Shown: positions 4,732 to 61,101 of the stretch, one piece after another
How the letters are laid out: every line of letters begins with the position of its first letter
Position numbering within the stretch: position 1 is the stretch's first letter
Assembly: GCA_017460915.1 (NCBI GenBank)
Contig: JAFUAA010000049.1
Span: 330,547-394,546, forward strand
Length of the DNA stretch: 64,000 bases
Origin: Bacteroidales bacterium
Lineage (GTDB): Bacteria; Bacteroidota; Bacteroidia; Bacteroidales; F082
Reading direction: 5' to 3'
The notes under the pieces: generated by a model
What the model was told of the DNA's origin: nothing
Databases searched by the model: none
Seen by the model: only the letters and a program-made list of their open reading frames with translations
Program-made: the position numbers and the translations under genes

Positions 4732-4734
4732 ACC

Positions 4735-5085: not shown

Positions 5086-5108
5086 ATTAACAAACTAACC
5101 CAATAGCA

Positions 5109-10198: not shown

Positions 10199-11044
10199 TT
10201 ATTCTTGGAATTCGCCCATGTGTACGTTGGAAACGTTGCGAAGCAGAATCACGTCGCCAGATGACGGAAGATAACCTAAATTGAGAATCTGGCTGAGGCT
10301 GGCGCCTTCTTTGTAGTATTTCATCGTCTCAATGCCCCAAACGAGGTCTTTGATGATGGGTTTCACGATAGTGTCAGTCGTATGGTTAACAGTGTCGGTC
10401 TGGATGATGGTTTCCTTGTCTAACTTGCCCGAAAGAATCACGGCGTTCAGCGGCTGGAAATTGGATGAAATGTCGCGGATTTCATAATAATACGCGGTGA
10501 AGTACGGGTCGTGTCCTACGATGTAGACCGTGTTGAAGTCTTCTTTCTGGTAGTTTCCGTCATTGAAGTAAACAGGGGCGATGCTGTCGTTCACAAAGTG
10601 TTCGGGGTTGACCATCACGTATTTGTAGGTTGAATCCGGTTCGGAACGCTCGAGATAATAACCGTATTCATTCGGATCGCCTTTGGGGTATTTGAACTCC
10701 AGCTTGGCAATGCCTTTGTGCTGTTCGAAGAAGTTGAAATACTGATTGGCGGGAATTGGAGTGGGTGCTTGGTGGTAATGGCTCCCGGGAGCAAGAATGA
10801 CATCGGTGAGCATAATGTCGTCGGCCACATAGCTTCCTTCGAGCTTGGGCGGTTCGTCGCCATAATAGAGGTTGCTTTGACCCATGGCCTGCAACAGGTT
10901 TTGAGGCATAAACTCGTTGATGTTTGGAATCCATTGATACCCGTAATAGACCGTGCCATTGTTGTCTGGGTCGTCTTTGAGGCACGAAGCCAAGAGCATG
11001 AGTCCTGAAAGGAGTAGTACAGTTCTTATAGTGCGCTTCTTCAT
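10199..11044 (-). CDS. Putative lipoprotein, unknown function
   Basis: The start was set at MKKRTIRTV, giving a lipoprotein signal with LLASC (Cys21); a longer frame adds 23 residues that would spoil the signal. The mature part (about 260 residues) has no motif I recognise; it is rich in aromatic and acidic residues and lacks cysteine after the lipidation site. It precedes the barrel gene and a promoter-like sequence lies just upstream (11081-11113). Confidence 0.75.
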   Translation of the reverse strand: MKKRTIRTVLLLSGLMLLASCLKDDPDNNGTVYYGYQWIPNINEFMPQNLLQAMGQSNLYYGDEPPKLEGSYVADDIMLTDVILAPGSHYHQAPTPIPANQYFNFFEQHKGIAKLEFKYPKGDPNEYGYYLERSEPDSTYKYVMVNPEHFVNDSIAPVYFNDGNYQKEDFNTVYIVGHDPYFTAYYYEIRDISSNFQPLNAVILSGKLDKETIIQTDTVNHTTDTIVKPIIKDLVWGIETMKYYKEGASLSQILNLGYLPSSGDVILLRNVSNVHMGEFQE

Positions 11045-11080
11045 CGTAATTGCTATTTTTCCTTTAATGAAAAACAATCG

Positions 11081-11113
11081 CAAATGTATGGATTTATGTC
11101 TTACATTCGACAA
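11081..11113 (-). promoter_or_regulatory. Probable promoter for the lipoprotein/barrel pair
   Basis: On the minus strand TACATTTG (11088-11081) matches TAnnTTTG exactly; the nearest upstream TTG (11113-11111) is 22 bases away, longer than the usual 19-20. The lipoprotein ATG is 36 bases downstream. Confidence 0.55.
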
Positions 11114-11156
11114 TAATAACGGACTTTTTTTGCTTATTATTGTAATTTATTGAAAA

Positions 11157-13880: not shown

Positions 13881-13967
13881 ATCGGTTTGCTTTATTTGTT
13901 TATTTTTTTGTCTCGTATGTTATATATAGGTGCATCGTTTCACAAAAAAATAACCTGATAAGAAAGA

Positions 13968-16900: not shown

Positions 16901-17003
16901 TAAAGGATAGCCAAAACTCTTTGCCTTGGGTGGAGGTGTCCTGCGCCCAAGCCGAGCTAAGGCCGAAAATCAGGTACAAAAACAGAAGTCCGAATCGTTT
17001 CAT
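13968..17003 (-). CDS. Large T9SS surface protein, paralogue of 11157-13880, with four GCDS repeats
   Basis: 1011 residues from MKRFGLLFLY; this start gives a clean signal peptide ending SSAWAQ, while the longer frame adds 14 residues, partly from an upstream repeat. Domain order: IgGFc-binding-like N-domain (from TQGKEFWLSFMHNG), a PKD domain (LLWDFGDGTTSTQNPVTHTY), four repeats of about 45-60 residues each ending near GCDSxVxLxL, the shared C-terminal module (PHWVVTATEFQINSYEF onward) and a T9SS sorting domain (TPNPNNGEMTL). It has more repeats than its neighbour, suggesting expansion by unequal recombination. Confidence 0.87.
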   Translation of the reverse strand: MKRFGLLFLYLIFGLSSAWAQDTSTQGKEFWLSFMHNGFREHPEGGWVINQVLISAKRDCTGTVSNPLTGWSQEFTVSANSITTIEIPEEQGYHNSTEHEFITQKGIKVVASDTISTYCTNIAYVSFDASFVLPTESLGDEYIIQNYDQSITPNGNYYATQNETSAFVIIATEDNTQIEITPTCATLGGHAAGQTFSVTMNAGETFHVRSTRSGNERDLSGTHILAHDCKRIAVFNGNTLTCIPADMTNGFDHVFEQAMPLRSWGKNFVVTNSMNRNRDFIKITSSANDNLITMNGEELVTLRAGHSYTFPMLESENSCFLQAEQPCAVYLFNNSSYDQNWLGGLGDPSMVWIAPVEQRIDEVTFTTFDHPNINIEVHSVNIIVNTDDIANVYFDDELLSPLVFTQVNGNEEYSFTRKDISHGVHHIACHNGFNAHVYGFGQAKGYAYLVGSKAINLSTSMTLNDIEVQPNSSFQYCSELPITFHAEVNHQTYDLLWDFGDGTTSTQNPVTHTYHDSRLFQVALAVSTDQGGCTGMSGDTIYFNVDATQPYIIEHDQICSGELYTGHGFSNIRIENDTILTRLEDNPIHPECKDSLLVYIEAYPQFHIPINDSRCWQGTPSIYDGFGFSFEYNQPGTYDRQLNLQTVNGCDSVVMLHLTVADRITHEFSHHECSGSYVWDGDTYTTSGNYEKYYTSLGGCDSIVTLHLTMGHTQYTTFDTITCSTFHWNGQDYGESGTYTQVLETYDGCDSTVVCHLTLSGNVEGSTTSTTNCDSYEWLGTEYTVSGLYSKTLSTALGCDSTVYLNLELDYTPDPTPIYPADPENTAPHWVVTATEFQINSYEFTFWDNNNLCRWDSIIWEFENPEIRWILEPDTTTHPAGKHCNIMVLDHVEDTVWLRAKVFNDCAPEGIERRYWFLCSFFDLDENTAKADFSITPNPNNGEMTLHFEHINGNIGLKVYDMRGALIDETQFYNSLDSFSKSYSCANKSKGVYFLVVTFKEGTLARKIVIQ

Positions 17004-17030
17004 TGTTGGCGTGATAAAAAAACGAGAATT

Positions 17031-17058
17031 GTAGAGACGCGCCACGGCGCGTCTCTAC
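17031..17058. repeat. Perfect interspersed palindrome GTAGAGACGCGCC/GGCGCGTCTCTAC
   Basis: Two perfect 13-base arms (17031-17043, 17046-17058) separated by AC. It lies between the stop of the gene at 17076 and the start of the one ending at 17003. Related copies with a GTAGAGACGC arm occur at 26179-26204 and 26297-26322. Confidence 0.85.
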
Positions 17059-17075: not shown

Positions 17076-20000
17076 TTATTTTTTGATGATGACTTTCTTT
17101 GCAACGGTGCCTTCCTTGCTGGTTGCCACAAAGAAATAGACACCATCGACGGGCTCATTCATTTGGTAGATATACGAACTCGGACCGTTGATGTTGTCGG
17201 TCTCGAATTGGTCGATGAGGGCGCCTTTCATGTCGTAGACCTTCACTTTGGTCTTACCTGTGAGGTAATCGAAGTTGAGGGTCATTTGTCCGTTGTTGGG
17301 GTTGGGCACGACGCTAAAGTCGGCGGGGCTGCTTTCTTTTTCTTCCACGCCATAGAACGAGGAAAGAAGCCAGTATTTTTGCTCAACGCCGGCATCCTGT
17401 GTGCAACGGTTGAAGGCATGGGCTTTCAGCCAGATGGTGTCTTCCACACGGTTGAGGACATACACCTTACAGCATTTGCCCTTCTCTCCAAAGGGTTCAA
17501 GTATCCAGTCGGGGGCTTCGTTGCAGGTCCAGACAACCGTGTCCCAATGGCAGTTGGGGTTCATGTCCCACAGGTTGAAGTCATACGAGTTGATTTGGAA
17601 CTCGGTGGAGGTGATGACCCAGTGCGGCGTGACGTTTTCGGCATCCATCGGGTAGATTGCGGTAGGCGTTGGGGTGTATTCGAACTGCAAATTCAAAGTG
17701 ACGAGACTGTCGCAATCGGCTTGGTTCTTGTAGGTCCTGTGATAGGTACCCGACATGTTGTAGATGGGATCTTCATGGTCGGTGTAAACGATTTCATGGT
17801 CTCCGGGATCCCAGAAGTATTCGTCGCACAATTCTTGAAGGGGAAGGTCGTTTTCGTCGTGATCGTAGATGCTGAGATAAAGAGTGACTTCGCTGTCGCA
17901 TCCGAAGCTGTTGACGTAATGGTGCGTGTAAACGGTGCTTTCGTTGAAGGTCATGTCCACGTTATAGTTGTCGTCTTTCCAACGGTAGGTGTCGCAGCTG
18001 GTAACCCTTTCTTCGAGGTTGTAGCTTGGCCTCAATTCGAGATTGAGCACGATGGTGCTGTCGCACGAGCCTGCCACGTGAAGAGTGTCATAATAAACGC
18101 CTGTCTCGTAGTAGGTTGTCCCATTCGACGGCCATGTGTATTGTTCGGCGCAAAGCGAAACGTTGTATGTCTTGGAATTGTATTCGGCTTCTTCTACGGT
18201 AAGGAAAACGATGCTGTCGCAACCATGAAGGGTTTCGAATACCAAGATATTCGGGAAGGGACTGGGCGGAAAATATGTGTCAAGCGGGGCGAAGTAGTAG
18301 CCCGGACCACCTTCGCAAGTGGATTCAACGAGTTCGATTTCGTAGGAAGGGTCTTGTGTGAGGTTAAGTCTGATGATGCTGTCGCAGCCGTTGACGGTTT
18401 CGAGTGTGTGGTAATAAATGCCCGAACCGGTGAGCTGTTCACCGAAAAAGTCGTACGGGTCGCCTTCGCAGAAGCGGTCCGAAATCGGGGTCTCAAACAC
18501 TTCGTGGTGGGTAAGGTGCAAGTGGATGGTGCTGTCGCAACCGTATTGCGTGGGGACAACATGGTCGTAGGTGCCTTCTGCATTCAGCAGTTCACCGAAG
18601 AAGTTGTAAGTGTCGTCGGGGCAGATGGTTGCACTGATGTCCGACTCGGTGTGCGGATGGACGAAAACGGTGACGCTGACGTCTTGTGCGGAAAGCCCGT
18701 CGCTAACGTGGCAAGTGTAGGTGGTCTGTCCCAAAGGAGGCGTGGCCACCGGGTCTTGAATGTTGGGATTGTTGAGCGTGTTGGCGGGTGCCCAAGCGAA
18801 AGTGTAGTTGCCCGTTCCGCCCGAAGGCATGGCATGGAGCGTGGTGGACTCGCCTTCGCAAAGGTCGTTGTTGTCGGCGGCGGCTTGGGCGAACATGTTG
18901 GAGCCTTCGATAGTTACGGTGACTTGCGTCGAACCGGTGCAGTTGCCTTGGGGGTTGGTGACGGTGCAGGTGAAGGTGGTGGTTTGTTGCAGCGCGATGG
19001 TTTGCGTGGTTTGGTTGTTGGGATTGACCACCTTGTCGGCGGGCTCCCAGTGGAAGTTGAACGTGCCTGTGGTTCCGGCATTGGCTGTCAAAGTGGCCAC
19101 TCCACCGTAGATAACGATGTTGGGCTGCGCAGTGGCGGTGGGGGCGGGGGTGGCATTGACGGGTACGGTTTGCGTACGCGAACCAGTGCAGTTGCCGTTA
19201 CCAATGCCGACAGTGTGGGTCACTTGGTAGTTGCCTGCCTGGGCGTAGGTGTGGCTAACGGTTTGCCCGTTGCCGGTCTGTCCGTCGCCGAAGTCCCATT
19301 GGTAGCTGCTGATGGTCTGTCCGGCAGGAGCCGTGGCGGTACTGGTGAATTGCGTCGGGTTGCCTTTGCACACGGTGGTGTAGTTGAAGTTGGATGTGGG
19401 TTGGCCGTAGACGGTCACCGTTTGGGTCTTTTCGCTGGTGCAGTGGCCGCCGCACGAAACGGTCAGCGTCACTTGATAGGTGCCGGCGTTGGCATAGGTA
19501 TGCGTAGTGGTTTGTCCTGTTCCCGTCTGGCCGTCGCCGAAGTTCCATTGGTAGCTTTGGATGGTCTGTCCGGCCGGATTGGTGGTGGAGGTGCTGGTGA
19601 ATTGTGTCGCTGTGCCTACGCAAACGGTAGTGTAATTGAAGTTGGCGGTCGGCATAGGGTAGATGACCACCTCGGTGGTGGCGCTATTGGTGGCGCTGCC
19701 TAAGGTGATGGTGCAGGTGTAGGTGCCGGCCATGTTCAAGGTGCAGTTGGGACGGGTGGGGTTCTGCTGGTTGGAGGTGAAGCCGCTGGGACCCGTCCAG
19801 CTGTAGGAAGCGCCAGCTTGTCCGTTGGCAGTCAAGTTGATGGTTTCGCCCACGCAGTAGGGGCCGCTGTTGTCGACCAAAGGAGGCAGGATGCCGCAGT
19901 TGGTGGTGCCGGTGCCAGCCACCTTACTGAAGGAAATGTCGCACGATTGGTTGGAATAGTTGGTAATGACCAAAATGAAATAGTCGCCCGTTTGTGCCGA

Positions 20001-20735
20001 GGCCGGAATCAGGCAGTGTTCGGTGTCACTGGCAGAATAGCTGCAACTTACCACTTTGTCGCTGGTCAAGCCGTAAGGGCAAGGAGAGGAAGGGTCGCTA
20101 AATGGCCCCCAACAGCAGAAGTCGATGTCGACGCTTGGCGTGCTGTACATGTAGATGTCGATATTGCCTGGGTTGTCAATCTGGAGGTAATACCAGGCAG
20201 GGTTGGGCTGCGAATTGAGACAGTCATAATAAGGCCCCGACTCGCCAGGATTGGCATACGTGCTGGCTGGGAATTGATACATGCCGTTGTCGGTGCAGAA
20301 CGGGTCGGCATTGGCGCAGGTACTGTTATCCCTTGAGCGACTGTAGTACTCCATCATCACTGAGTTGGCAAATTCCGTTGGCAATTCGGTCTTGTATTCA
20401 CGGGCCACTTCTGAGGCTTGCACTTTGTCCATTCTCGAAAAGTCGATGGCGTTTTGTTCGCGGAAGTCGGCAAAGGCCTCTTTCAAGTCAATTCCGTCGT
20501 AGGCTTCGTTGGTACTGATGACGAAAACGCCGTCGCGTTCGCCTGTGATGAGGTCGAAACGTCCATCGGACATCAGGTTGTAGAGGAAAAAGACGCGCTC
20601 GTCGAAAAGGGCAATGTTGGTCATGTCAAAGCTGATTGTGGGCTGATTTTCCATTGTTGTCTGATACTGTGCATTCAGTCTCGTTGGCAGGATGAGCATG
20701 AGCATCATGCAGGTGAATAGGGTAAATCTTTTCAT
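17076..20735 (-). CDS. Large T9SS surface protein with Ig-like, two PKD and six GCDS repeats
   Basis: 1219 residues. Signal peptide to residue 22; an N-terminal region whose middle (ADPFCTDNG, DIDFCCWGPFSDPSSPCPYG) resembles a secreted beta-sandwich; an Ig-like domain (about 283-358, GPYCVGETINL and YSWTGPSGF); two PKD domains (about 360-447 and 450-535, each with WNFGDGQTG or WDFGDGQTG); six GCDS-type repeats; the shared module; and a T9SS sorting domain ending VAKKVIIKK. The N-terminal architecture is shared with the next gene rather than with the two before it, so the array is two pairs. Confidence 0.87.
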   Translation of the reverse strand: MKRFTLFTCMMLMLILPTRLNAQYQTTMENQPTISFDMTNIALFDERVFFLYNLMSDGRFDLITGERDGVFVISTNEAYDGIDLKEAFADFREQNAIDFSRMDKVQASEVAREYKTELPTEFANSVMMEYYSRSRDNSTCANADPFCTDNGMYQFPASTYANPGESGPYYDCLNSQPNPAWYYLQIDNPGNIDIYMYSTPSVDIDFCCWGPFSDPSSPCPYGLTSDKVVSCSYSASDTEHCLIPASAQTGDYFILVITNYSNQSCDISFSKVAGTGTTNCGILPPLVDNSGPYCVGETINLTANGQAGASYSWTGPSGFTSNQQNPTRPNCTLNMAGTYTCTITLGSATNSATTEVVIYPMPTANFNYTTVCVGTATQFTSTSTTNPAGQTIQSYQWNFGDGQTGTGQTTTHTYANAGTYQVTLTVSCGGHCTSEKTQTVTVYGQPTSNFNYTTVCKGNPTQFTSTATAPAGQTISSYQWDFGDGQTGNGQTVSHTYAQAGNYQVTHTVGIGNGNCTGSRTQTVPVNATPAPTATAQPNIVIYGGVATLTANAGTTGTFNFHWEPADKVVNPNNQTTQTIALQQTTTFTCTVTNPQGNCTGSTQVTVTIEGSNMFAQAAADNNDLCEGESTTLHAMPSGGTGNYTFAWAPANTLNNPNIQDPVATPPLGQTTYTCHVSDGLSAQDVSVTVFVHPHTESDISATICPDDTYNFFGELLNAEGTYDHVVPTQYGCDSTIHLHLTHHEVFETPISDRFCEGDPYDFFGEQLTGSGIYYHTLETVNGCDSIIRLNLTQDPSYEIELVESTCEGGPGYYFAPLDTYFPPSPFPNILVFETLHGCDSIVFLTVEEAEYNSKTYNVSLCAEQYTWPSNGTTYYETGVYYDTLHVAGSCDSTIVLNLELRPSYNLEERVTSCDTYRWKDDNYNVDMTFNESTVYTHHYVNSFGCDSEVTLYLSIYDHDENDLPLQELCDEYFWDPGDHEIVYTDHEDPIYNMSGTYHRTYKNQADCDSLVTLNLQFEYTPTPTAIYPMDAENVTPHWVITSTEFQINSYDFNLWDMNPNCHWDTVVWTCNEAPDWILEPFGEKGKCCKVYVLNRVEDTIWLKAHAFNRCTQDAGVEQKYWLLSSFYGVEEKESSPADFSVVPNPNNGQMTLNFDYLTGKTKVKVYDMKGALIDQFETDNINGPSSYIYQMNEPVDGVYFFVATSKEGTVAKKVIIKK

Positions 20736-20772
20736 GTTGGTTATTTTAGAAGGTTATTTATTGATTTGTTTC

Positions 20773-23397
20773 TTATTGTTGAACGACCACTTTCTTGGCC
20801 ATCGTGCCTTCCTTGCCGGTGGCCACGAAGAAATAGATGCCGTTGGTTGCTTGCTTCATTTGATATTCGTATGTGCTGAGCCCGTCGCCGTTGAAGGTCT
20901 CAAACTGGTCGATGAGCGAGCCGCGCATGTCGTAAACCTTCACGTCGACTTTGCTGGTGAGGCGCTCGAAGTTCAAGGTCATTTGTCCGTTGTTGGGGTT
21001 GGGCAGCACGTTGAAGTCAAAGGTCTCTGAACCTGTCGAAGGGCCGTTTTCATCCACACCATAGAACGAGCAGACGAACCAATATCTTTGCGAGACTCCT
21101 TCATCAGGGGTGCAACGGTTGAAGGCGGTGGCCCTCAGCCAAACGGTGTCTTCCATGTGGTTGAGCACCGTCATGCGGCAGCTCTGGCCCTTGTTGCCAA
21201 AGGGCTCGATAATCCAATCGGCGTTGTTTTCGAAGCTCCATGTAACGGTGTCCCAATGGCAGTGGGGGTTGGTGTCCCAAAGGTGGAATTCGTAGGTGTT
21301 GATTTGGAACTCGGTGGCGGTGACCACCCAGTGCGGTGCTGTGTTTTCGGGGTCGGTGGGATAGATGGGCGTAGGTGAGGGCGTGTATTCGAAGTGCACT
21401 TCCATCGTGACGATGCTGTCGCAGTCGGCATGGTTCCTATAGGTCCTGTGGTAAAGGCCCGATTCGGTATAAACCAATCCTTCGTGGTCGCTTTCGATGA
21501 TTTCGTGCCCCATGGGATCCCAAAAATACGCATCGCAGTTTTCGGTATCGGGAACGGTGAAGTTGCTTTCTTCAGGGTAGTTGATGCCCAGATGGAGTGT
21601 GACGATGCTGTCGCAACCGTGGATGGTTTGCAGGGTGTGATGGTAAGTGCCTATTTCACTTATTTGTTGCCCAAAGAAGTTGTAGGACGTGCCTTCGCAA
21701 ATGGTCTGATGGATTTCGGAGGCCTCTTGGGGATGTACGGTGATGCTCACACTGACCTCGGCCTCGACGATGCCATCGCTGACGAGGCAGGTGTAGATGG
21801 TGGTGCCCAATTCGGGCGAAGCTACAGGGTTTTGGATGTTGGGGTCGCTCAAGCTGTTGGCGGGCGACCAATTGTAGGTGTAATTGCCCGTTCCGGCCAC
21901 AGGCACGGCATGCAACGTGGTAGAGCTGCCTTCACAAATCTCGTCTTGGTCGGCAGTGGCGGTGGCGGTCATGTTGGAACCGGCCATGACGACGGTGAGT
22001 TGTGTCGAGTTGACGCAGTCGCCGTCGACGTTGGTGACGGTCACGGTGTAGGTTTGGGTTTCAATCAGCGCGACGGTCTGGGTGGTTGGGCTGTTGGGGT
22101 CGACCACCATGTCGGCGGGTTCCCAATGGTAGTTGAAGTTGCCTTCGGCGCCGGGGTTGGCGGTGATGGTGGCCACGCCGCCATATTGCACCGAGGCGGG
22201 ATTGGCGCTGGTTTCGGGTTCGGGTGTGGCATAAATCACGACCTCGGTGGAGCCCGAAGTGGTTTGGTCGTCGACGGTGGTGACGCAAGTGTAGGTGCCT
22301 GCCATGGCCATGGTGCAGTCGGTGAGGACGGGATTCTGTTGGTTGGAGGTGAAACCGTCAGGGCCGGTCCAGCTGTAGGTGGCACCGGCTTGTGTGGTCA
22401 CCGTCAGGTTGATAGTCTCTCCAGTGCAATAAGGGCCGTCGTTGTTGGCGATGCCAGGCAAGATGCCGCAGTCGGTGGTGCCAGGCCCCGAGTTCTCGGT
22501 CTTGGTGAACGAAATTGTGCAGGGCTGGCGAGAGTAATTGGTGATCATCAGGATATAGTATTCACCGACTTCAGGGGTGTGTTCATAGATGGTGCCGTGA
22601 CCTGCATCGTGAATGTGTTCGCTTTCGGGATAGCCTAAGTAAATGTCTTCGGAGTAGGATGAAGAGTAGTTGCAGTCGATGATTTTGCTCACTGTGAGTT
22701 GTGCGACGCAAGGCGAGACCGGGTCTTCGTAGGGACCCCACATGCAGAAGTCGATGTCTCGGTTGTCATTGTAATTGGGGTCGTGGCCTTCCATGTGGAT
22801 GATGAACTGCCCAGGCGTGTTGATTCTCATGTGATACCAGGCTGGACTATAGGAAGAACCGATGCAGCCATCATTCAAGGTCTCTCCTTCAAGTTGGTCG
22901 GCCGTTTGTTCTGATGTGGCGGCATCGAAGGTGATGACGTCAGAGGTACAGAACGGGTCGGAGTCGACGCAATGGTTGTTCTCTCGCGTGGCGCGGCTGA
23001 GGGCGAGGTCCATCGTTATCGAGGTGAAAGCCACGGGTGAGACGCCCGCTTTCCACACGGGGACGAGGTCGAAAATGTCGTTTTTCGAGAGGAGGGAAAA
23101 CAAGGCAAACGAGCGGTTGTATAGTTCCTCAAACTCGTCGAGGAAGTCGTCTTCGGCCTCGTCTGTGGAGGGGACGACGACGAACATGCCGTTTTCCTCT
23201 TCCGGAATCGCAGTGAAACGACTGTCTTGGCTGAGTTGGTACAGCAGGAACAGACGGAAGTCGTGGTTGTCGATGTTGAAGAAGTTGAGGCTGATGCCAT
23301 TGTCGGCGTAAGGCCAATAGGGGGACTGTGCCCATTGCTTTATGGGGATAATGATGGCTAATAGTATGATTGCCAATGTTTTATGGAAGGTTTTCAT
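20773..23397 (-). CDS. Large T9SS surface protein, paralogue of 17076-20735
   Basis: 874 residues with signal peptide (ending KQWAQ), the same N-terminal sandwich (DSDPFCTSD, DIDFCMWGPYEDPVSPC), one Ig-like domain (YSWTGPDGFTSNQQNP is almost identical to its neighbour), no PKD pair, two GCDS-type repeats, the shared module and a T9SS sorting domain ending MAKKVVVQQ. Compared with 17076-20735 it lacks the two PKD domains and four repeats, so the pair differs mainly by domain gain or loss. It is the most upstream gene of the array; a TATATTTG box lies 81 bases upstream. Confidence 0.87.
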   Translation of the reverse strand: MKTFHKTLAIILLAIIIPIKQWAQSPYWPYADNGISLNFFNIDNHDFRLFLLYQLSQDSRFTAIPEEENGMFVVVPSTDEAEDDFLDEFEELYNRSFALFSLLSKNDIFDLVPVWKAGVSPVAFTSITMDLALSRATRENNHCVDSDPFCTSDVITFDAATSEQTADQLEGETLNDGCIGSSYSPAWYHMRINTPGQFIIHMEGHDPNYNDNRDIDFCMWGPYEDPVSPCVAQLTVSKIIDCNYSSSYSEDIYLGYPESEHIHDAGHGTIYEHTPEVGEYYILMITNYSRQPCTISFTKTENSGPGTTDCGILPGIANNDGPYCTGETINLTVTTQAGATYSWTGPDGFTSNQQNPVLTDCTMAMAGTYTCVTTVDDQTTSGSTEVVIYATPEPETSANPASVQYGGVATITANPGAEGNFNYHWEPADMVVDPNSPTTQTVALIETQTYTVTVTNVDGDCVNSTQLTVVMAGSNMTATATADQDEICEGSSTTLHAVPVAGTGNYTYNWSPANSLSDPNIQNPVASPELGTTIYTCLVSDGIVEAEVSVSITVHPQEASEIHQTICEGTSYNFFGQQISEIGTYHHTLQTIHGCDSIVTLHLGINYPEESNFTVPDTENCDAYFWDPMGHEIIESDHEGLVYTESGLYHRTYRNHADCDSIVTMEVHFEYTPSPTPIYPTDPENTAPHWVVTATEFQINTYEFHLWDTNPHCHWDTVTWSFENNADWIIEPFGNKGQSCRMTVLNHMEDTVWLRATAFNRCTPDEGVSQRYWFVCSFYGVDENGPSTGSETFDFNVLPNPNNGQMTLNFERLTSKVDVKVYDMRGSLIDQFETFNGDGLSTYEYQMKQATNGIYFFVATGKEGTMAKKVVVQQ

Positions 23398-50177: not shown

Positions 50178-53100
50178 TCATTTCGTTATCACTAGTTTCC
50201 CTGTTTGCACCAATTCACCGCATCGCACGGTGTAGACGTACACGCCGTCGGAAAGATGGCGCAAATCTAGCACTTTTTGTCCCTGGTGACCATTCAGTTC
50301 TGAAGAAAGCACTGTCACGCCAAGGGCACTCGTGATTGTAATCATTGCTTTCGTGGCGTCTCCAGGAAGGGTGTAGTCGACCGCTGTCCATGTGGTGGCA
50401 GGATTGGGCTTGACGCTGACACTCATGCCAATGGCCTTGCTGAGGTCTTCCATGTTGTAGGTGTAACTCCTGTCTCCTCCCTTGTCGTCTTCGACGATGG
50501 TCAGATCCGGACAATCGGACGGATTCTCATCCGCATAGCTCTCCCAATCCGTACCATATAAAACGGCTTTTGCCATGTATTGAGGATAGCCCGCTCCGCA
50601 GGGAGGCCAGTCGCTTTGCCGCTTCACGTCAAAGTCGCAGAAACGCACAATGGTGTTGCTCAGGTTGTTGACATAGATTCCGTAGTCATTCTTGGTAAAA
50701 GTTGTATGGGTCACGGTGATGGCGGGTGGTGTCCTTGTCCCGTCGTTCACCGATCTGATGGCCTTAAAGAAGCCTTTGAACGTGGAAGTGTCGTAAGAGG
50801 GGCAAGGATGAATGTTGTTGCTTTCGCACGGCCCCGAAACGCTGAAGCCGGCCTCGTAGCCTGCGATGCCGCTGGACCAATAGGAGATGTTGTCTGAGGG
50901 TTCCGTAACTGAGAAGTCGCAGGACTGAAAGCTTATGCCACGCACATGGTCGAGGTCCACATGTTTGTGGAAGATGTGGTATTCATCACCTTTGTAGTTC
51001 CAGTTCACATCGAAACGGCATCGCATAAAACTGGCGTTGTAGTTGGCCTCCTTGCCGTTGGCATGGTGGTTCTTGTAGTGCAGGGCGTGGACGCTCCTCT
51101 GGTTGTTTCGGAATACGGCATCCTTGGCATAGACGATGCCGCCCGTTGTGCTCCAATAGCCAGGCCTCCACAACTCCAAGGCACAAATGGCGTTCTCGAT
51201 GGTCGCGCCGTTCCTCAACTCGACATAGCCTTGGGCGTAGTGGCCGTTGGCATCCTCGAATTGGTTGGCGTTCTTGTTGCCCCACACTTCTATGCCTTGC
51301 CATAATTCATTCGGACACGCGCTTGTCAATGTGCAATGATCAAGGATTAGTTTTCCACCAGGTTTGACTATGATCTTTGCGTCTGAATGGAGTTTTATTT
51401 TTAAATTCGTACCAGATGTTTTTCTAATAGTCAAACAACCTCCATTTTCGACAATAATATCTTGATTGACTATCATATTCTCATCCCAAAGCATATTATC
51501 ATTAATTACCATCGGTGTGTTATCGTAATCCCATGGGCCAATCGTAATGTTATCGATAGCAACATCACTAAAATGATACTTTCCTGTCTCCACATATAGT
51601 CTTACTTTCTTAACATCGGAAGGTAACAAAATTGAGGCATGTTGCCAATCTGGCCCATGATCACCAATTTCACTCCAATAGGGATAGTGAAATGACCAAT
51701 TGTTATTGTCAGTCTGCGTACTCAAAAGTATTCTCGGTTGATCTTCACCAGAATTCCAATCATATATATTCATGTTATAATAGAAATCCAAAATATTATT
51801 GCAAGAACCGTGCAAATTAATATCGGGGCTCTCGATACATGAATACTTCTGAGCGTAGCTGGTCATTTCTCTAGTATCAATATAGATATAATAATCTCCA
51901 TCTTGGGCATGTGATGGTCCTGTGAGATTAGAAGGATGAGGGGCACTATGTCTCCAGAAAATACCATTATCACGATTGGGAACTTCCACTTGCATCCAAT
52001 TGTCCCATCCGTTTTCAAAACTTGCATTATATGTTCCTATGATAGTGCACTGTCCAAAACTGTTTAATGGCCCCAAATTAGGATTCGAATCATCTCCATC
52101 TGGTTCGTCGGGACAAGGGGGACAATGTGCAGGCTTTGGTCCAATGCCCCAATTATAGTATCCATCACCATCCATATCAACACATCTAACATCCTGTTCT
52201 GTTAGATTATTGTAATGAATTGGAGTCGATAATGAATAAGTGTATCCTGGTGCATCATTACTAATATGAAGAATGTACTTGAAACCAAAATCACTATTAT
52301 CTTCATCTATACCCATAGACTCTTTATAAATCCAATATGTCAACCCGAGAAAATCCTTGTCATAGTAACCGTTTTCGTATGGCAAACCCAATATGTTTTC
52401 CACAATATCTTCGTCTATAGTTCCCCAACCAACCAATGCCATACAATGATGGTCTAGACCATACCACAATGGAAGAGAAGAAGCTGTTAAAGGACCTTTG
52501 TTAATGATGTATTGTTTGAGAAGCAAGTCTGTCATAGATTGTTGACTATGCTCTGTATAATCGGTGATTCTGACCCTAATTAATGAATCAGCACAAAGAT
52601 CCTCACAGTTTTCTAATGAAGCCGAGTAGGGCAGACAACTTTCTAATGGAACACCTTCTTGCTTATAATGCTTTAATGCTTTATAAGGATAATCAGCTTC
52701 AACTTTTCCTTCTCTACAAGCAATGAATTGTTCAGATAAATCAACATCTAAATGTTGATTGTAATATAAATTTGTTAGTGCCTCAACTTGAGCTGTAGGT
52801 CCGAAAATCCAACATGTGGAAGCAGCTCTATAATCACCGCCAAGTCTCTCGCATTCTTCAGCATTAATATCACAATCAAAACTGTCATCAAACCAGCATC
52901 CCTCACTTTGACATACAACGGGTGTAATCCATCCTGTCCCTAACGGATCGCCATCATAGTAACTTGATTGTGGATTGTTGGCACCATGCCTGTTTCTCCA
53001 ATCAAAATTGCTGACAAAGTTCTTACTGTAATTATATCTGTCAGGTCCGAAAACTGAGAAAAAGCCTTTGGAAAAGAATTCGTATCCATAGGTTCTAAAG

Positions 53101-53666
53101 CCATCTCCAAATATCTTTGCCTTCTGTTTATAGGACATTGAAGACATTTTGGTTGAATTTGCTATCCATATCAATCCTTTGTTTTGGATATAGTTTTGTA
53201 TTTTCGTCAGTTTTTGATTGTTGGCCGCTGCTGCTGCGGTCAAACGCAAAAACTCTGGGTTTGAATACGTCGTATTGCTTGTTTCTATTGAATTGATGTT
53301 TACTATCGCATCATATACCTGAACAATAAGTTCGGTTGGTGTATATGATTCGAAGAAGCAGCTTTCCTCGCATTTCTGTGAAAAACTGAACGTCGAATCG
53401 TTCTCAAACAAACGATACGACTCGTAGATCATATACTCGTCATCGTAGTTGTCGCTTACGACAAATCGCACGAATCCTAATTCCGAAGTGAAGGTCACTT
53501 GACCTGAAATCCCTATGCTCGTTGCAGGGTTCCCGTCAAAAGGATGTAACACTGTGTCCGCCTCAACCTGTAGGCCCATCTGAGTCACACGGTTGAAATT
53601 TTGCGCTTGCATCATTGTTCTAATGAACAAAAATAGAATTGGCAATAATAGATAGATCCTTTTCAT
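50178..53666 (-). CDS. Papain-like (C1) domain, MAM, beta-helix, T9SS surface protein
   Basis: 1162 residues. Signal peptide to residue 22; a papain-like domain (about 218-490) with catalytic Cys285 in STCWIFGP and His407 in DHHCMALVGWG; a calcium-type linker (DGDGYYNWGIG, CPPCPDEPDGDD, 499-535); a MAM-like domain (about 548-712, FENGWDNW and DGDYYIYIDTRE); a right-handed beta-helix (about 740-1050, GIEVWGNKNANQFEDANG); and a T9SS sorting domain. The usual Asn of YWxxxNSWG is Glu449 in YWIYKESMG, and a Cys-rich insertion of about 27 residues separates the oxyanion Gln253 from Cys285. Activity is therefore uncertain. A TACTTTTG box lies at 53703-53696. Confidence 0.85.
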   Translation of the reverse strand: MKRIYLLLPILFLFIRTMMQAQNFNRVTQMGLQVEADTVLHPFDGNPATSIGISGQVTFTSELGFVRFVVSDNYDDEYMIYESYRLFENDSTFSFSQKCEESCFFESYTPTELIVQVYDAIVNINSIETSNTTYSNPEFLRLTAAAAANNQKLTKIQNYIQNKGLIWIANSTKMSSMSYKQKAKIFGDGFRTYGYEFFSKGFFSVFGPDRYNYSKNFVSNFDWRNRHGANNPQSSYYDGDPLGTGWITPVVCQSEGCWFDDSFDCDINAEECERLGGDYRAASTCWIFGPTAQVEALTNLYYNQHLDVDLSEQFIACREGKVEADYPYKALKHYKQEGVPLESCLPYSASLENCEDLCADSLIRVRITDYTEHSQQSMTDLLLKQYIINKGPLTASSLPLWYGLDHHCMALVGWGTIDEDIVENILGLPYENGYYDKDFLGLTYWIYKESMGIDEDNSDFGFKYILHISNDAPGYTYSLSTPIHYNNLTEQDVRCVDMDGDGYYNWGIGPKPAHCPPCPDEPDGDDSNPNLGPLNSFGQCTIIGTYNASFENGWDNWMQVEVPNRDNGIFWRHSAPHPSNLTGPSHAQDGDYYIYIDTREMTSYAQKYSCIESPDINLHGSCNNILDFYYNMNIYDWNSGEDQPRILLSTQTDNNNWSFHYPYWSEIGDHGPDWQHASILLPSDVKKVRLYVETGKYHFSDVAIDNITIGPWDYDNTPMVINDNMLWDENMIVNQDIIVENGGCLTIRKTSGTNLKIKLHSDAKIIVKPGGKLILDHCTLTSACPNELWQGIEVWGNKNANQFEDANGHYAQGYVELRNGATIENAICALELWRPGYWSTTGGIVYAKDAVFRNNQRSVHALHYKNHHANGKEANYNASFMRCRFDVNWNYKGDEYHIFHKHVDLDHVRGISFQSCDFSVTEPSDNISYWSSGIAGYEAGFSVSGPCESNNIHPCPSYDTSTFKGFFKAIRSVNDGTRTPPAITVTHTTFTKNDYGIYVNNLSNTIVRFCDFDVKRQSDWPPCGAGYPQYMAKAVLYGTDWESYADENPSDCPDLTIVEDDKGGDRSYTYNMEDLSKAIGMSVSVKPNPATTWTAVDYTLPGDATKAMITITSALGVTVLSSELNGHQGQKVLDLRHLSDGVYVYTVRCGELVQTGKLVITK

Positions 53667-57303: not shown

Positions 57304-57333
57304 TTGGTGTAATCCAAAAATTCCCTATTTTTG
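57304..57333 (+). promoter_or_regulatory. Promoter of the reductase operon
   Basis: TTG (57304-57306), 19 bases, TATTTTTG (57326-57333): exact consensus, 20 bases before the first ATG. It supports 57354-61101 being one transcript. Confidence 0.85.
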
Positions 57334-57353
57334 ACAACTATTTCTCAACGAAA

Positions 57354-58121
57354 ATGTCGATACATTCATTCAATCTGTTTCTCATCGTCATGGCTTGCGT
57401 GGCTGTGGTGGTGTTTGCGAGCCTCTATTTCGTGGATGCGGGCTATGGTAAGTTTTACGACAGGAAATGGGGCCCCGCGGTCAGCAACAAGCTGGGTTGG
57501 GTGCTGATGGAATCGCCTGTGTTCATTGCGATGCTGTTGCTTTGGTTTGGCTCCGATAGACGGCAGGATTGGGTCAGGATGGCGTTCCTGTTTCTGTTCG
57601 AATTGCACTATTTCCAGCGTTCCTTCGTGTTCCCGTTCCGGCTGCGCGGCCAAAGCGTCATGCCGCTTTCCATCATCGTGATGGGCGTGACTTTCAATGT
57701 GCTGAACGCCTTGATGCAAGGTGGCTGGATTTTCTATCTTTCTCCAACCGATTATTACCCCGCTGATTGGCTGACTACACCGAAGTTCATCGGCGGTTTC
57801 CTGGTTTTCATCGTCGGGATGTTTGTCAACATCCAGTCTGATGACATCATTAGGAATTTGAGGAAGGAGGGCGATACGAAGCATTATCTGCCCCAAGGTG
57901 GCATGTTCAATTATGTGACTTCGGCCAATTATTTCGGCGAGTTCGTCGAATGGGTCGGCTTTGCCATCCTCACCTGGTCGTGGTCGGGGGCGGTGTTCGC
58001 CCTGTGGACTTTTGCCAACCTCGCTCCGCGTGCGGCACGCATCTATGAGAAATACGAAGTTGAGTTTGGCGACCAGCTGAATACGAAAAAAGTGAAGCGA
58101 ATCATACCTTATATCTATTGA
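57354..58121 (+). CDS. Steroid 5-alpha-reductase-type membrane protein
   Basis: 255 residues with six or so transmembrane helices; the C-terminal half matches the Steroid_dh (3-oxo-5-alpha-steroid 4-dehydrogenase) family: IQSDDIIRNLRK, YLPQGGMFNYVTSANYFGE and EWVGFAILT. Family members reduce a carbon-carbon double bond conjugated to a ketone using NADPH. In gut Bacteroidota similar proteins have been assigned 5-alpha-reductase activity on 3-oxo bile acids. The two following genes fit the same pathway; see findings. Substrate not proven here. Confidence 0.88.
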   Translation: MSIHSFNLFLIVMACVAVVVFASLYFVDAGYGKFYDRKWGPAVSNKLGWVLMESPVFIAMLLLWFGSDRRQDWVRMAFLFLFELHYFQRSFVFPFRLRGQSVMPLSIIVMGVTFNVLNALMQGGWIFYLSPTDYYPADWLTTPKFIGGFLVFIVGMFVNIQSDDIIRNLRKEGDTKHYLPQGGMFNYVTSANYFGEFVEWVGFAILTWSWSGAVFALWTFANLAPRAARIYEKYEVEFGDQLNTKKVKRIIPYIY

Positions 58122-58124
58122 ACT

Positions 58125-59360
58125 ATGGAAAACTCGACAATCTTCACGCCTTGCGAAATCGGTCCTATCACCTTGCGCAACAGGGTGATACGCTCGGCGG
58201 CATTCGAAAACATGGCTTATGGCAATCGGCCTTCCGATGATTTGTATAACTATCATACGGCAGTGGCGAGAGGCGGCGTTGGCATGACGACGGTGGCTTA
58301 CGCAGCCGTCAATCGCTCGGGCTTGTCGTTCAACGGTCAGCTTTGGATGCGCGAAGAAATCGTCCCCGACCTGAAACGTCTCACCGATGCCATTCATGCC
58401 GAGGGTGCCAAGGCCTCGATTCAGTTGGGACATTGTGGCAACATGACGCACCGTTCCACCTGCGGCTGCAAACCCGTTGGCGCTTCGGGCGGCTTCAACA
58501 TGTATTCCCCTACTTTCGTTAGGAGATTGAGGAAATCTGAGATTTACGAACTTGTTTTGGATTTCGGCAAGGCGGTCGACTTGGCTCGAAAAGCGGGTTT
58601 CGACTGCGTGGAAATCCATGCGGGACATGGCTATCTCATCAGCCAGTTCCTCTCGCCTTACACCAACCATCGCCGTGATGAGTTTGGCGGGACGCTCGAC
58701 AATCGGATGCGTTTCATGAAACTCGTCATCGAAGAGGTGATGCGTGCGGCAGGTAACGATATGGCCGTGGTGGTCAAGGTGAACATGCACGATGGTTTCA
58801 AGAAAGGAATGGACGAGGACGATTGCATCATCGTGGCAAAGGAACTGGAAAAACTTGGTGTTCACGCTCTCATTTTGACGGCGGGTTTCGTCAGCAAGGC
58901 CCCGATGGAGGTGATGCGTGGAGCGATGCCGCTCAAGACGTTGCGTTATTACATGGACCCGAAAAAACTCTGGTGGCTCAAGGCCGGATTGGCTTTGTTT
59001 GGCCGTCAACTGATTCCTACGGTGCCGTTCAGCGAAGGCTATTTCTTGGAGGACGCCAAGAAGTTCCGCGCCGCGCTGAAGTTGCCTTTGATTTATGTGG
59101 GCGGCATGGTCTCGAAGGAGAAGATGGAAGAAGTGCTCGATTCAGGCTTCGTTGCCCTCCAAATGGCGCGTGCCTTGATCCGCGACACCGATTTCGTCAA
59201 CAAGCTGCATAGCGGCGAGGTGACCCGCAGCGAATGCAAGCATTCCAACTATTGCATCGGGCGTATGTATACGCTTGAAATGAAGTGCCACAGTTGCTTG
59301 GACGAAGATTTGCCGAAGAGCATACAGAAGGAAATCAGGAAAGCGGAGAAGAAAGGATGA
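58125..59360 (+). CDS. Old Yellow Enzyme-type NADH:flavin oxidoreductase
   Basis: 411 residues with an FMN-binding TIM barrel: ITLRNRVIRSAAFENMAYG, QLGHCGNMTHRS, the hallmark HAGHGYLISQFLSPYTN, and GGMVSKEKMEE near the phosphate site. It lacks the extra NADH/FAD and Fe-S domain of 660-residue relatives such as BaiCD and BaiH, but ends with a cysteine set (SECKHSNYCIG, MKCHSCL). Members reduce alkenes next to carbonyls, including steroids. Only 3 bases after the reductase gene and overlapping the SDR by 4 bases. Confidence 0.92.
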   Translation: MENSTIFTPCEIGPITLRNRVIRSAAFENMAYGNRPSDDLYNYHTAVARGGVGMTTVAYAAVNRSGLSFNGQLWMREEIVPDLKRLTDAIHAEGAKASIQLGHCGNMTHRSTCGCKPVGASGGFNMYSPTFVRRLRKSEIYELVLDFGKAVDLARKAGFDCVEIHAGHGYLISQFLSPYTNHRRDEFGGTLDNRMRFMKLVIEEVMRAAGNDMAVVVKVNMHDGFKKGMDEDDCIIVAKELEKLGVHALILTAGFVSKAPMEVMRGAMPLKTLRYYMDPKKLWWLKAGLALFGRQLIPTVPFSEGYFLEDAKKFRAALKLPLIYVGGMVSKEKMEEVLDSGFVALQMARALIRDTDFVNKLHSGEVTRSECKHSNYCIGRMYTLEMKCHSCLDEDLPKSIQKEIRKAEKKG

Positions 59361-60172
59361 ATTTCGAGAAATGGGCGAATCGGTTTGTTGAGTCGCACGG
59401 GCATCGTCCGTGGGCGTTGGTGACGGGTGGCAGCTCGGGCATGGGCTTGGATTTTGCGCACCAGTTGGCCGAAATAGGTTGCAACTTGTTGCTGGTCAGC
59501 AATCAAAAGGAAGAATTGGAATGCGTTGCAATGGATTTGAACGCGCAATTCCAAATGCGGGTCATACCTTATTATATAGACCTCATCGCCGAAGATGCCG
59601 CCGATGAATTGCTCGCCTTTTGCCATGCCGAAAACCTGCAAATCGACATCCTCATCAACAACGCGGGCATGTTTTTCTTCGAGGAACTGACCGCTGAGAA
59701 CGAAACAAAAGCATTGAAAATGATGCGATTGCATATGCTGACCCCAACAAGACTGTGCATTTTGTTTGGCGAGGAAATGAAGAAATGCGGTTTCGGCTAC
59801 ATTCTCAATATGTCGTCGATGGCGGCCAAATTGCCTTGTCCGGGCATCACCATTTATTCCGCTACGAAAGCCTATCTGAAGAGTTTCGGCAAGTCGCTCT
59901 ATTTCGAGATGCGACCTTACGGTGTTGGGGTGACCACGGTTTGTCCAGCCGCCATTGCCACGCCACTTTACAAGCTGAAACCTAGTCTGTTGAAGTTTGG
60001 TGTACGCATTGGCCTTATTGGCACGCCGCAGTGGTTGGTGCGCAAAGCCTTGAGAGGCATGACGAGAAAGAAGCGGGTGGTGAAACCTGGTTTTATGAAC
60101 CTCTATTTGCCGCTGTTGATTGCTGTTTTGCCCAAGGGATTAGTGAGCAGATTATGGCAAAGATTCAAATAA
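59357..60172 (+). CDS. Short-chain dehydrogenase/reductase (SDR)
   Basis: 271 residues from MNFEKWANRF; this ATG overlaps the preceding stop. Rossmann motif GGSSGMGLDF, INNAG (NNAG), catalytic serine in NMSSMAAK and YSATK (Tyr-xxx-Lys). The C-terminal hydrophobic stretch (about residues 250-262, LYLPLLIAVLPKGLV) suggests membrane association, as in 17-beta- or 3-beta-hydroxysteroid dehydrogenases. In this operon it could oxidise or reduce a hydroxyl/keto group of the substrate. Substrate not proven. Confidence 0.92.
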   Translation: MNFEKWANRFVESHGHRPWALVTGGSSGMGLDFAHQLAEIGCNLLLVSNQKEELECVAMDLNAQFQMRVIPYYIDLIAEDAADELLAFCHAENLQIDILINNAGMFFFEELTAENETKALKMMRLHMLTPTRLCILFGEEMKKCGFGYILNMSSMAAKLPCPGITIYSATKAYLKSFGKSLYFEMRPYGVGVTTVCPAAIATPLYKLKPSLLKFGVRIGLIGTPQWLVRKALRGMTRKKRVVKPGFMNLYLPLLIAVLPKGLVSRLWQRFK

Positions 60173-61101
60173 CCCTATTGACGCTGTTGCTGTCGCTGAC
60201 GGCTTTCGGCCAACGCTACGAGAAAGTGCCGTTCGGCGACTTCGAGCAGTGGACGGTGCGTTATGTCACTGAGTCGCAAATTATTGGCGGTCAGGAGAGA
60301 ACCTTGTATGTGGTCGGCCCGACGGATACGATTCGGGGCAGTGTGGCTCACGACTACGAGAACACAATTTGGTCGTCGTCGAATGCCTTCGCCAAGGTGG
60401 CGGGCGTGGTGAAGACCAGCATCAATGTCACGCCCGACAAAGGTCCGAAAGGCCGTTGTGCCAAATTGACTACACAATTTGCCTCGTGCAGAGTGGCTGG
60501 ACTGGTGAATATCAAGGTGTTGGCAGCGGGTTCCATTTATTGGGGCAAGATGCTGGAACCCATCACGGGCGTCAGCGACCCTTACGCCTTCATGGATTGG
60601 GGCATTCCGTTCACGAAAAGACCGAATGCGCTTGTGCTCAATTATAAATCGGTCATTCCCAACACAGGAAAACTCGTGAAAGGCACCTCTTTTCGCACCA
60701 CGGAATTTGATGGCTACGACCCCGCCGAAGTGTTTTTCATCCTGCAATACCGTTGGGAGGACGAGAAAGGAAACATCCATGCGAAGCGCGTGGGCACTGC
60801 CGTGGCGCACGTCGACAAATCTTCCAACGGTTGGGTGAACAACTTCCGAATCCCACTCGTCTATGGAGATGCTAGAAAATCAACTGATTACAAACCATAT
60901 ATGGCTTTGATTTCAGGAGCCAAGACTATGTATGCCCTCAACAGCAAAGGCAAGAAAAAAGCCATCCAAGAAGAAGCCTGGGCCGAGGACGATAGTCCTG
61001 TCACTCACGCGATAATGATGATTACCTCAGGCAGCCAAGGCGCATTTGTGGGCGCTTTGGGCAATGTGCTTTGGGTGGACGAAATCCGGCTTGAGTATTG
61101 A
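60154..61101 (+). CDS. PCMD-domain exported protein
   Basis: 315 residues from MAKIQITLLTLL, with a signal peptide ending AFGQ; the longer frame lies entirely within the SDR gene and is rejected. The mature part matches the putative carbohydrate metabolism domain (PCMD): GWVNNFRIPLVYGD, DSPVTHAIMMITSGSQGAF, LWVDEIRLEY. In Bacteroidota PCMD proteins are usually in glycan-use loci; here one closes a reductase operon, overlapping the SDR by 19 bases. Role in this context is unknown. Confidence 0.82.
   Translation: MAKIQITLLTLLLSLTAFGQRYEKVPFGDFEQWTVRYVTESQIIGGQERTLYVVGPTDTIRGSVAHDYENTIWSSSNAFAKVAGVVKTSINVTPDKGPKGRCAKLTTQFASCRVAGLVNIKVLAAGSIYWGKMLEPITGVSDPYAFMDWGIPFTKRPNALVLNYKSVIPNTGKLVKGTSFRTTEFDGYDPAEVFFILQYRWEDEKGNIHAKRVGTAVAHVDKSSNGWVNNFRIPLVYGDARKSTDYKPYMALISGAKTMYALNSKGKKKAIQEEAWAEDDSPVTHAIMMITSGSQGAFVGALGNVLWVDEIRLEY

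Follow-up and report, generated by a model that had tools for sequence, protein, structure and literature searches.

The stretch of 64,000 nucleotides that was analyzed here (the window) contains a four-gene operon, 5AR-OYE-SDR-PCMD (57354-61101), which was confirmed by an ORF check and by Pfam searches. In our view it probably serves the A-ring redox chemistry of 3-keto-delta-4 steroids or bile acids, with the PCMD protein as an exported sterol-binding accessory, whereby we infer the substrates and the binding. The data establish the gene identities, the coupling of the genes, the conservation of the cluster, the presence of the catalytic residues, and a recurrent association of this PCMD subfamily with sterol genes. 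The SDR would interconvert 3-hydroxy and 3-keto groups, the OYE would shuttle electrons between a 3-keto-5-beta steroid and its 3-keto-delta-4 form, and the membrane-bound 5AR would use NADPH to reduce the delta-4 bond, yielding the flat 5-alpha product. The exported PCMD protein would bind the sterol beyond the inner membrane and deliver it to the enzymes in the cytosol and the membrane, or retain it for them. Among the points against this explanation are that no bile salt hydrolase match was found in the assembly, that the catalytic Gln of the 5AR is replaced by Met, and that related PCMD structures resemble carbohydrate-binding modules.

Table 1. Features of the operon and its putative promoter element, with window coordinates.
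Feature	Position	Strand	Evidence
Likely Bacteroidetes '-7' promoter box TATTTTTG	57326..57333	+	sequence; count versus shuffles; fit to consensus
5AR, membrane steroid 5-alpha-reductase family	57354..58121	+	255 aa; Pfam Steroid_dh 6e-43; 7c83 1.2e-48; residue alignment
OYE, short FMN oxidoreductase	58125..59360	+	411 aa; Pfam Oxidored_FMN 3.8e-59; alignments
SDR kind A, presumed 3-hydroxysteroid dehydrogenase	59357..60172	+	271 aa from ATG 59357; Pfam adh_short 1.5e-37; two-kind comparison
PCMD, exported jelly-roll protein, presumed sterol-binding accessory	60154..61101	+	315 aa from ATG 60154; Pfam PCMD 3e-22

All four proteins exceed the curated Pfam cut-offs of their families (Steroid_dh, Oxidored_FMN, adh_short, PCMD). 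The tight succession of the first three genes had been predicted, and the open reading frames were indeed found where they had been placed, with a gap of 3 nt between 5AR and OYE and an overlap of 4 nt between OYE and SDR; SDR and PCMD overlap by 19 nt, and translational coupling joins all four genes into a single unit. The "exact promoter" of the original prediction held in part. The '-7' box is an exact fit to TAnnTTTG, which we take to be the Bacteroidetes consensus, whereas the upstream box is partial and comprises only TTGG (57304-57307). Because the '-7' pattern occurs 48 times in the window, compared to 30.5 occurrences expected by chance from shuffled sequences, the box is weak evidence on its own.

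The assignment of the first protein to the steroid 5-alpha-reductase family was borne out by the Pfam score (146.8 bits for Steroid_dh versus a cut-off of 22.6) and by E-values of 1e-48 to PbSRD5A (7c83; 91 of 242 aligned residues identical) and 1e-36 to human SRD5A2 (7bw1), in contrast to only 7e-9 for a fatty-acyl enoyl-CoA reductase. It shares with both steroid reductases the catalytic Glu and Tyr (E53 and Y86, equivalent to E57 and Y91 of human SRD5A2, for which a Glu/Tyr mechanism has been described; PMC7815742) and the NADPH residues N159, D163, R170, N192, E196, R226, and Y234, but it lacks the motif Gln and His231. Met52 replaces the Gln of the Q-E-Y motif, which is highly conserved among the 5-alpha-reductases studied (PMC7815742). 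Met is present at this position in the window and in all 112 other sampled cluster-type 5ARs. At the position of human His231, 111 of these 112 have Ile, Leu, Thr, or Val, and the remaining row is blank. We would thus assign the enzyme to a superfamily branch with M-E-Y rather than to the classical Q-E-Y enzymes.

The arrangement of the genes is conserved. All 20 same-genus loci that were analyzed, the window's own included, have the genes for 5AR and OYE next to each other, and therefore the gene order is beyond chance. An SDR gene follows in 19 of them, and the remaining locus has a partial SDR match at its edge. In a larger set of 112 loci, mostly from other genera (L022-L141; eight of 120 were dropped due to an OYE identity below 55%, and at least four pairs are the same genome twice), a 5AR lies within the locus in 92 cases, and a 5AR together with a recognized SDR in 79. 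The 5AR-OYE(-SDR) cluster recurs with its order kept across Bacteroidales, including named members of Parabacteroides, Bacteroides, Phocaeicola, Odoribacter, and Coprobacter, in agreement with the prediction that the operon belongs to a type found in gut Bacteroidota.

The SDR slot of the cluster holds two unrelated kinds, A and B, which are about 20-30% identical (window A versus B about 23% or below threshold). P. massiliensis and most Bacteroides and Phocaeicola loci contain kind B, whereas the window contains kind A, which is also present in the clusters of Parabacteroides distasonis, Odoribacter, and Coprobacter. The original prediction had regarded the SDR as a 3-beta-HSDH by analogy, but because kind A is not kind B this assignment is not transferable, and the label 3-beta-HSDH is unproven for the window. 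It is a serious possibility, even if not the one we lean to, that SDR-A is a 3-alpha-HSDH or another position-specific HSDH, that kind B takes the 3-beta role, and that the operon leads to allo and not to iso-allo products. The low identity is in agreement with this, as is the tandem occurrence of A and B in 11 of the 112 loci, including Odoribacter and Coprobacter (of the 11 pairs, two derive from one genome that is represented twice). Furthermore, the loci of P. distasonis and P. chinchillae combine OYE with kind A and lack a 5AR, and the best match to kind B in the window's assembly is just 27%. However, the stereochemistry of both kinds is putative.

The PCMD protein has an N-terminus that resembles a signal peptide, without a lipobox cysteine, and it scores above the Pfam cut-off for PF13201, a family with the BT2081-type fold. 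BT2081 (3hbz), the structural representative, has an N-terminal Ig-like domain, which the window protein lacks. In BT2081 the fold forms a deep pocket with a volume of about 1160 A3, and the authors of the structure favored carbohydrate binding (PMC2954218). The pocket residues Thr155, Thr166, Thr185, and Thr219 correspond to Ala, Pro, Cys, and Met in the window protein, and they map to apolar residues in the window-type subfamily, both according to a weak pairwise alignment. Related PCMD structures resemble carbohydrate-binding modules (VIA-align), and the same list of structural matches also includes Stig cyclases, which are jelly rolls and presumably handle apolar polycyclic ligands. While the resemblance to carbohydrate-binding modules would fit an exported carbohydrate-binding or glycan-processing protein encoded behind the operon without a functional tie to it, we regard this as rather unlikely, given the Stig cyclases among the matches and the repeated linkage of window-type PCMD genes, in various positions, to sterol systems of two types.

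This linkage is seen at two levels. Within the window's genus, 37 of 99 genomes contain a window-type PCMD gene and 64 an OYE gene, and all 37 are among the 64, which answers the proposed co-occurrence check positively (hypergeometric 4e-10; this and the Fisher values ignore kinship). The operon-type PCMD gene lies within 3.1 kb of an OYE gene in 33 of 35 cases, one of which involves an OYE fragment (G030), and the other two are on different contigs. As 27 of the 64 OYE-bearing genomes do not contain a window-type PCMD, the protein is not essential to the pathway. Among 295 Bacteroidales genomes, a window-type PCMD is present in 23 of 24 genomes with a sterol-type sulfotransferase, and it is encoded 43-199 nt directly downstream of 12 of the 24 sulfotransferase genes, in five families; named cases of this arrangement are Bacteroides finegoldii and P. 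distasonis. In total, 16 of 51 window-type PCMD genes are at most 5 kb away from a sulfotransferase or OYE gene, compared to 0 of 112 other PCMD genes among the matches listed (150 for PF13201, 112 of them not window-type). The sulfotransferase counts and the 3-kb count given below draw on 40 of 49 OYE genomes (the nine with an identity of at most 48% being excluded), on 24 of the 54 genomes with a sulfotransferase (>480 bits), and on 35 of the 63 with a 5AR (>250 bits).

The same data also set limits. In the 295-genome set, 33 of the 51 genes have no sulfotransferase or OYE gene within 20 kb, and only four, from two genera, are within 3 kb of 5AR/OYE. In G116 and G220, which were counted as neither, an SDR-A/PCMD pair is located 10-14 kb from 5AR/OYE. 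Outside the window's genus, PCMD is present at seven of 117 OYE loci, and 11 of 20 hand-picked PCMD neighborhoods contain no recognized sterol gene. Since the co-localization with 5AR/OYE alone is modest, the case for PCMD has to draw also on its linkage to the sulfotransferase and on the counts within the genus. The position of the gene varies, as it follows SDR-A in the window's genus and SDR-B in one other locus (L109), is upstream on the same strand in two (L122, L137), and is divergent from 5AR in four (L026, L058, L102, L113). An accidental neighborhood had been suspected from 11 of 20 same-genus loci (1.5-kb flanks), and was dropped on account of the sulfotransferase linkage, the co-occurrence in the genus, and the control. 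PCMD is thus an "unusual fourth partner" only at first sight, and the repeated presence of its group next to steroid-modifying clusters of two different types suggests a possible role as a helper that binds steroids. We tentatively extend this, as a conceivable but bolder proposal, to the Bacteroidales PCMD proteins of about 315 residues and a single domain, which might be exported binders of sterols or bile acids for both A-ring reduction and sterol sulfonation, and might account for a step that is missing from the steroid metabolism of gut Bacteroidota, namely, how the substrates are taken up or handled.

The OYE retains H165, H168, and Y170, and as predicted it is shorter than BaiCD (411 aa; 194.1 bits against the BaiCD equivalog of NCBIfam, which has 642 positions and a cut-off of 825). 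It shares the OYE barrel with BaiCD and BaiH, which have about 640 aa and four cluster cysteines, and its C-terminal cysteine motif would have the same role by position, with one cysteine fewer. Its tail has three invariant cysteines (371, 377, and 388), whereas one cysteine of the four-cysteine motif has been lost in this short clade, with Ser at the second position, and the complete set for a [4Fe-4S] cluster is therefore not apparent in the OYE sequence. Relatives with 38-42% identity keep all four; on three plasmids (Sphingobium, Burkholderia, Tsukamurella) no steroid genes were found among the annotated neighbors of such relatives on two, and the third is unannotated. Three genomes from a single Bacteroidales genus carry a four-cysteine OYE at a distance of about 9 kb from a 5AR with 39-40% identity.

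The best solved relatives of the OYE, a putative 5-beta-reductase, are YqjM-type enzymes and 2,4-dienoyl-CoA reductases. The original prediction had named best matches to fatty-acid or quinone enzymes as evidence to the contrary; these were found in part for the OYE, but not for the 5AR, which matches SRD5A best. That the best solved relatives of the OYE are general enoate reductases is one reason to consider that the substrates of these enzymes are not bile acids but other polycyclic enones, e.g., phytosterols from the diet, plant steroids, or a lipid of the cell. Furthermore, bile salt hydrolase (PF02275) had no match in the window's own assembly (95.7% complete, 79 contigs), and several cluster-bearing relatives are MAGs from herbivores. 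However, free bile acids come from other gut bacteria, and the gene composition is that of iso-allo bile-acid formers (PMC10382948), and we thus judge this alternative to be quite unlikely. A role in fatty-acid or quinone metabolism is highly improbable, since, although the Steroid_dh homologs include very-long-chain enoyl-CoA reductases and a 2,4-dienoyl-CoA reductase (1ps9) matches the OYE with 1e-33, steroid reductases match the 5AR better than enoyl-CoA reductase by about 28-40 orders of magnitude in E-value, and no acyl-CoA or quinone genes are among the neighbors.

Steroid or bile-acid A-ring chemistry with an exported accessory would be of broader relevance. The switching of bile acids between 5-alpha and 5-beta forms and the sulfonation of sterols by gut Bacteroidota are described to have an influence on sterol levels in the host, on immune cells, and on Gram-positive pathogens, and the literature passages considered here do not address the extracellular capture of such apolar, membrane-active substrates. 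If true, an exported partner shared by both systems would be a testable handle on this step. The two SDR kinds would aid the sequence-based prediction of which gut species makes which product, and the M-E-Y 5AR together with the three-cysteine OYE would be sequence markers for the clade. The present analysis adds the short three-cysteine OYE clade, the Met-for-Gln 5AR, the two SDR kinds, and PCMD as a recurrent partner.

Two known gene clusters are among the systems closest to the operon. The cholesterol sulfonation cluster BT_0411-BT_0416 of B. thetaiotaomicron is of the same type, judged by gene composition, as the SLC13-cysC-cysD-cysN-sulfotransferase clusters of B. finegoldii and P. distasonis, behind which a window-type PCMD gene is located. 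Synteny suggests that BT_0417, the gene behind BT_0416, encodes a PCMD protein; the published BT_0416 study makes no mention of BT_0417. A sulfotransferase of the BT_0416 type was not found in the window's own assembly at 1e-20, and the tie of the window to this cluster runs through PCMD only. The second system is the 5AR/5-beta-reductase/3-beta-HSDH cluster for iso-allo bile acids such as isoalloLCA, which has been described from gut Bacteroidota including Parabacteroides (PMC10382948). Reviews report the same gene composition for P. merdae, where loss of the 5AR abolished the formation of allo-bile acids. The window shares the three enzyme families, an SRD5A-type 5AR, an OYE-type flavin reductase, and an SDR, in the same order. 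Its OYE is 60-66% identical to those of named Parabacteroides and Bacteroides, its 5AR about 50-62% to those of named Parabacteroides, Bacteroides, and Phocaeicola, and P. merdae is likened by description alone. The three-gene core of the operon is therefore a further member of a cluster type that is already known, and to this core the operon adds the coupled PCMD gene.

Open reading frames were found at the predicted positions for all four genes of the operon, and domain matches assigned their products clearly to families: a steroid 5-alpha-reductase family protein (5AR), an Old Yellow Enzyme (OYE), a short-chain dehydrogenase (SDR) and an exported PF13201 protein (PCMD). The operon is flanked upstream by a divergent Zn-metallopeptidase gene and downstream by a DUF5606 gene. 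The core is a known kind of cluster, as the original prediction had recognized; new are the association with PCMD and two sequence signatures. It seems fairly probable that 5AR, OYE and SDR catalyze A-ring redox reactions of 3-keto-delta-4 steroids or bile acids and that PCMD is a sterol-binding accessory. Taken by itself, sterol binding by PCMD is a tentative assignment, with the odds slightly against it.

Features of the window, the operon genes first and other loci after them
Feature	Position	Remarks
5AR	57354-58121	ORF
OYE	58125-59360	ORF; 3-nt gap after 5AR
SDR	59357-60172	ORF; 4-nt overlap with OYE
PCMD	60154-61101	ORF; 19-nt overlap with SDR
Two adjoining large proteins	11157-17045	907 and 1025 aa; each matches IgGFc_binding (E ~1e-60); also PKD and type IX secretion tail domains
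Two further secretion-tail proteins	17076-23397	after the IgGFc_binding pair
MAM-domain protein	50178-53666	1162 aa; type IX secretion tail; candidate papain-like cysteine-protease stretch (by eye)

The closest solved structures to 5AR are PbSRD5A (7c83, 1.2e-48) and human SRD5A2 (7bw1, 1.2e-36); a very-long-chain enoyl-CoA reductase is a far weaker match (7.3e-9). Both catalytic residues, Glu (E53) and Tyr (Y86), are retained, as are the NADPH residues N159, D163, R170, N192, E196, R226 and Y234. Because Met replaces the Gln beside the catalytic Glu in this protein and in 112/112 other cluster-type sequences (22 from the window's genus, duplicates included), the Bacteroidales cluster-type enzymes are, judged by these residues, an M-E-Y branch. 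In human SRD5A2, Q56A/L is reported to abolish activity (PMC7815742). The M-E-Y enzymes are presumably functional, because the form is also present in two Parabacteroides loci (L062, L070), and disruption of the P. merdae 5AR led to the loss of allo-LCA derivatives, according to a review (PMC10382948).

The OYE has the barrel and the HxxH-Y site and is devoid of the C-terminal FAD/NAD domain. Its tail cysteines 371, 377 and 388 are invariant in an alignment of 34 relatives. The motif C-x2-C-x2-C-x(9-11)-C has Ser, Val, Ala, Thr or Lys at its second cysteine position in 29/29 sequences of at least 51% identity, and Cys there in 5/5 relatives at 40-42%; all four cysteines are complete in three relatives at 39-41% (Sphingobium, Tsukamurella, Burkholderia). 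Since this Cys is kept in the distant relatives and absent from the closer ones, the motif comparison identifies the cluster OYE, with its three cysteines, as derived from a four-cysteine protein. Three genomes from a single genus (G306:C29, G110:C11, G214:C85) have a 5AR of 39-40% identity at a distance of about 9 kb from a four-cysteine OYE; this may be an earlier form of the pairing.

The OYE is present in 49 of 295 Bacteroidales genomes (E 1e-60); within the window's genus, its own genome included, 64 of 99 have it. Of the 40 best OYE genomes, 30 have a strong 5AR no more than 3.5 kb away. Named genera among at least 80 loci include Parabacteroides, Bacteroides, Phocaeicola, Odoribacter and Coprobacter. 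It had been taken for granted that the SDR is a 3-beta-HSDH, which was wrong to assume, as the third-slot SDRs are of two unrelated kinds, A (the window type) and B. Among 112 loci around OYE genes (at least four duplicate pairs), 38 contain only A, 44 only B and 11 both in tandem, while the motif filter recognized no SDR in 19. Kind A occurs in P. distasonis, P. chinchillae and the window's genus, kind B in P. massiliensis, B. fragilis, Phocaeicola massiliensis and P. coprophilus, and both together in Odoribacter and Coprobacter. The window's assembly yielded kind A only, the best match to B having 27% identity; its SDR may therefore be of either stereochemistry. In a P. distasonis locus (L166, 1-7015), within which no 5AR was found, a TolC/RND efflux set is directly followed by OYE and a kind-A SDR, and a coupling of steroid redox to efflux is possible there.

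The window-type PCMD comprises about 315 aa, has a signal-peptide-like start and no N-terminal Ig domain, and a lipobox cysteine is absent among the 28 sequences listed. It is present in 45/295 Bacteroidales genomes. Within the 99 genomes of the genus, 37 have PCMD, all of them OYE-positive, and 27 OYE-positive genomes are without it. In the genus set 33 of 35 operon-type genes lie within 3.1 kb of the OYE (30 of them at 755-958 nt), the other two being located on different contigs. Ten genomes, again all OYE-positive, have a second type (44-46% identity) elsewhere. Outside the genus PCMD adjoins the cluster in 7/117 loci: divergent from 5AR (L026, L058, L102, L113), upstream in the same orientation (L122, L137) or behind a kind-B SDR (L109). 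In genomes G116 and G220 its partner is a kind-A SDR, and the distance to 5AR and OYE is 10-14 kb. Locus L161 of G220 carries two window-type copies about 5 kb apart, one (4581-6375) behind a kind-A SDR (52%), the other (10697-11659) behind a GDSL lipase. A second PCMD of the same subfamily in P. distasonis (L165, 5932-6891) lies outside any steroid cluster, next to Na+/H+ antiporter and restriction-modification genes.

In 7 of 20 further PCMD neighbourhoods, which were our own choice, cysD, cysN and a Sulfotransfer_3 protein gene are directly upstream. A high-score sulfotransferase was found in 24 Bacteroidales genomes, 23 of which also have PCMD, and in 12 genomes of five families PCMD follows it directly on the same strand after 43-199 nt. 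As a control, a sulfotransferase or OYE lies within 5 kb of 16/51 window-type PCMD genes and within 20 kb of 18/51; among the matches listed, 0/112 other PCMD genes had either within 20 kb. In the PCMD tree, six inner branches of which are poorly supported, cluster-linked and sulfotransferase-linked proteins are spread over several branches. The searched literature, which does not cover subscription papers, yielded no statement on a PCMD-steroid link.

Two known systems can be compared. In P. merdae, the 5AR clusters with a predicted 3-beta-HSDH and an NADH:flavin oxidoreductase (review, PMC10382948); the likeness to the window is drawn through this description, the loci compared here being from other taxa. 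For PCMD, the annotated gene orders are cysQ-SLC13-cysC-cysD-cysN-sulfotransferase-PCMD in B. finegoldii and SLC13-cysC-cysD-cysN-sulfotransferase-PCMD in P. distasonis. By gene order, this is the layout of the BT_0411-BT_0416 cluster, in which BT_0416 is reported to make cholesterol sulfate (PMC9417993).
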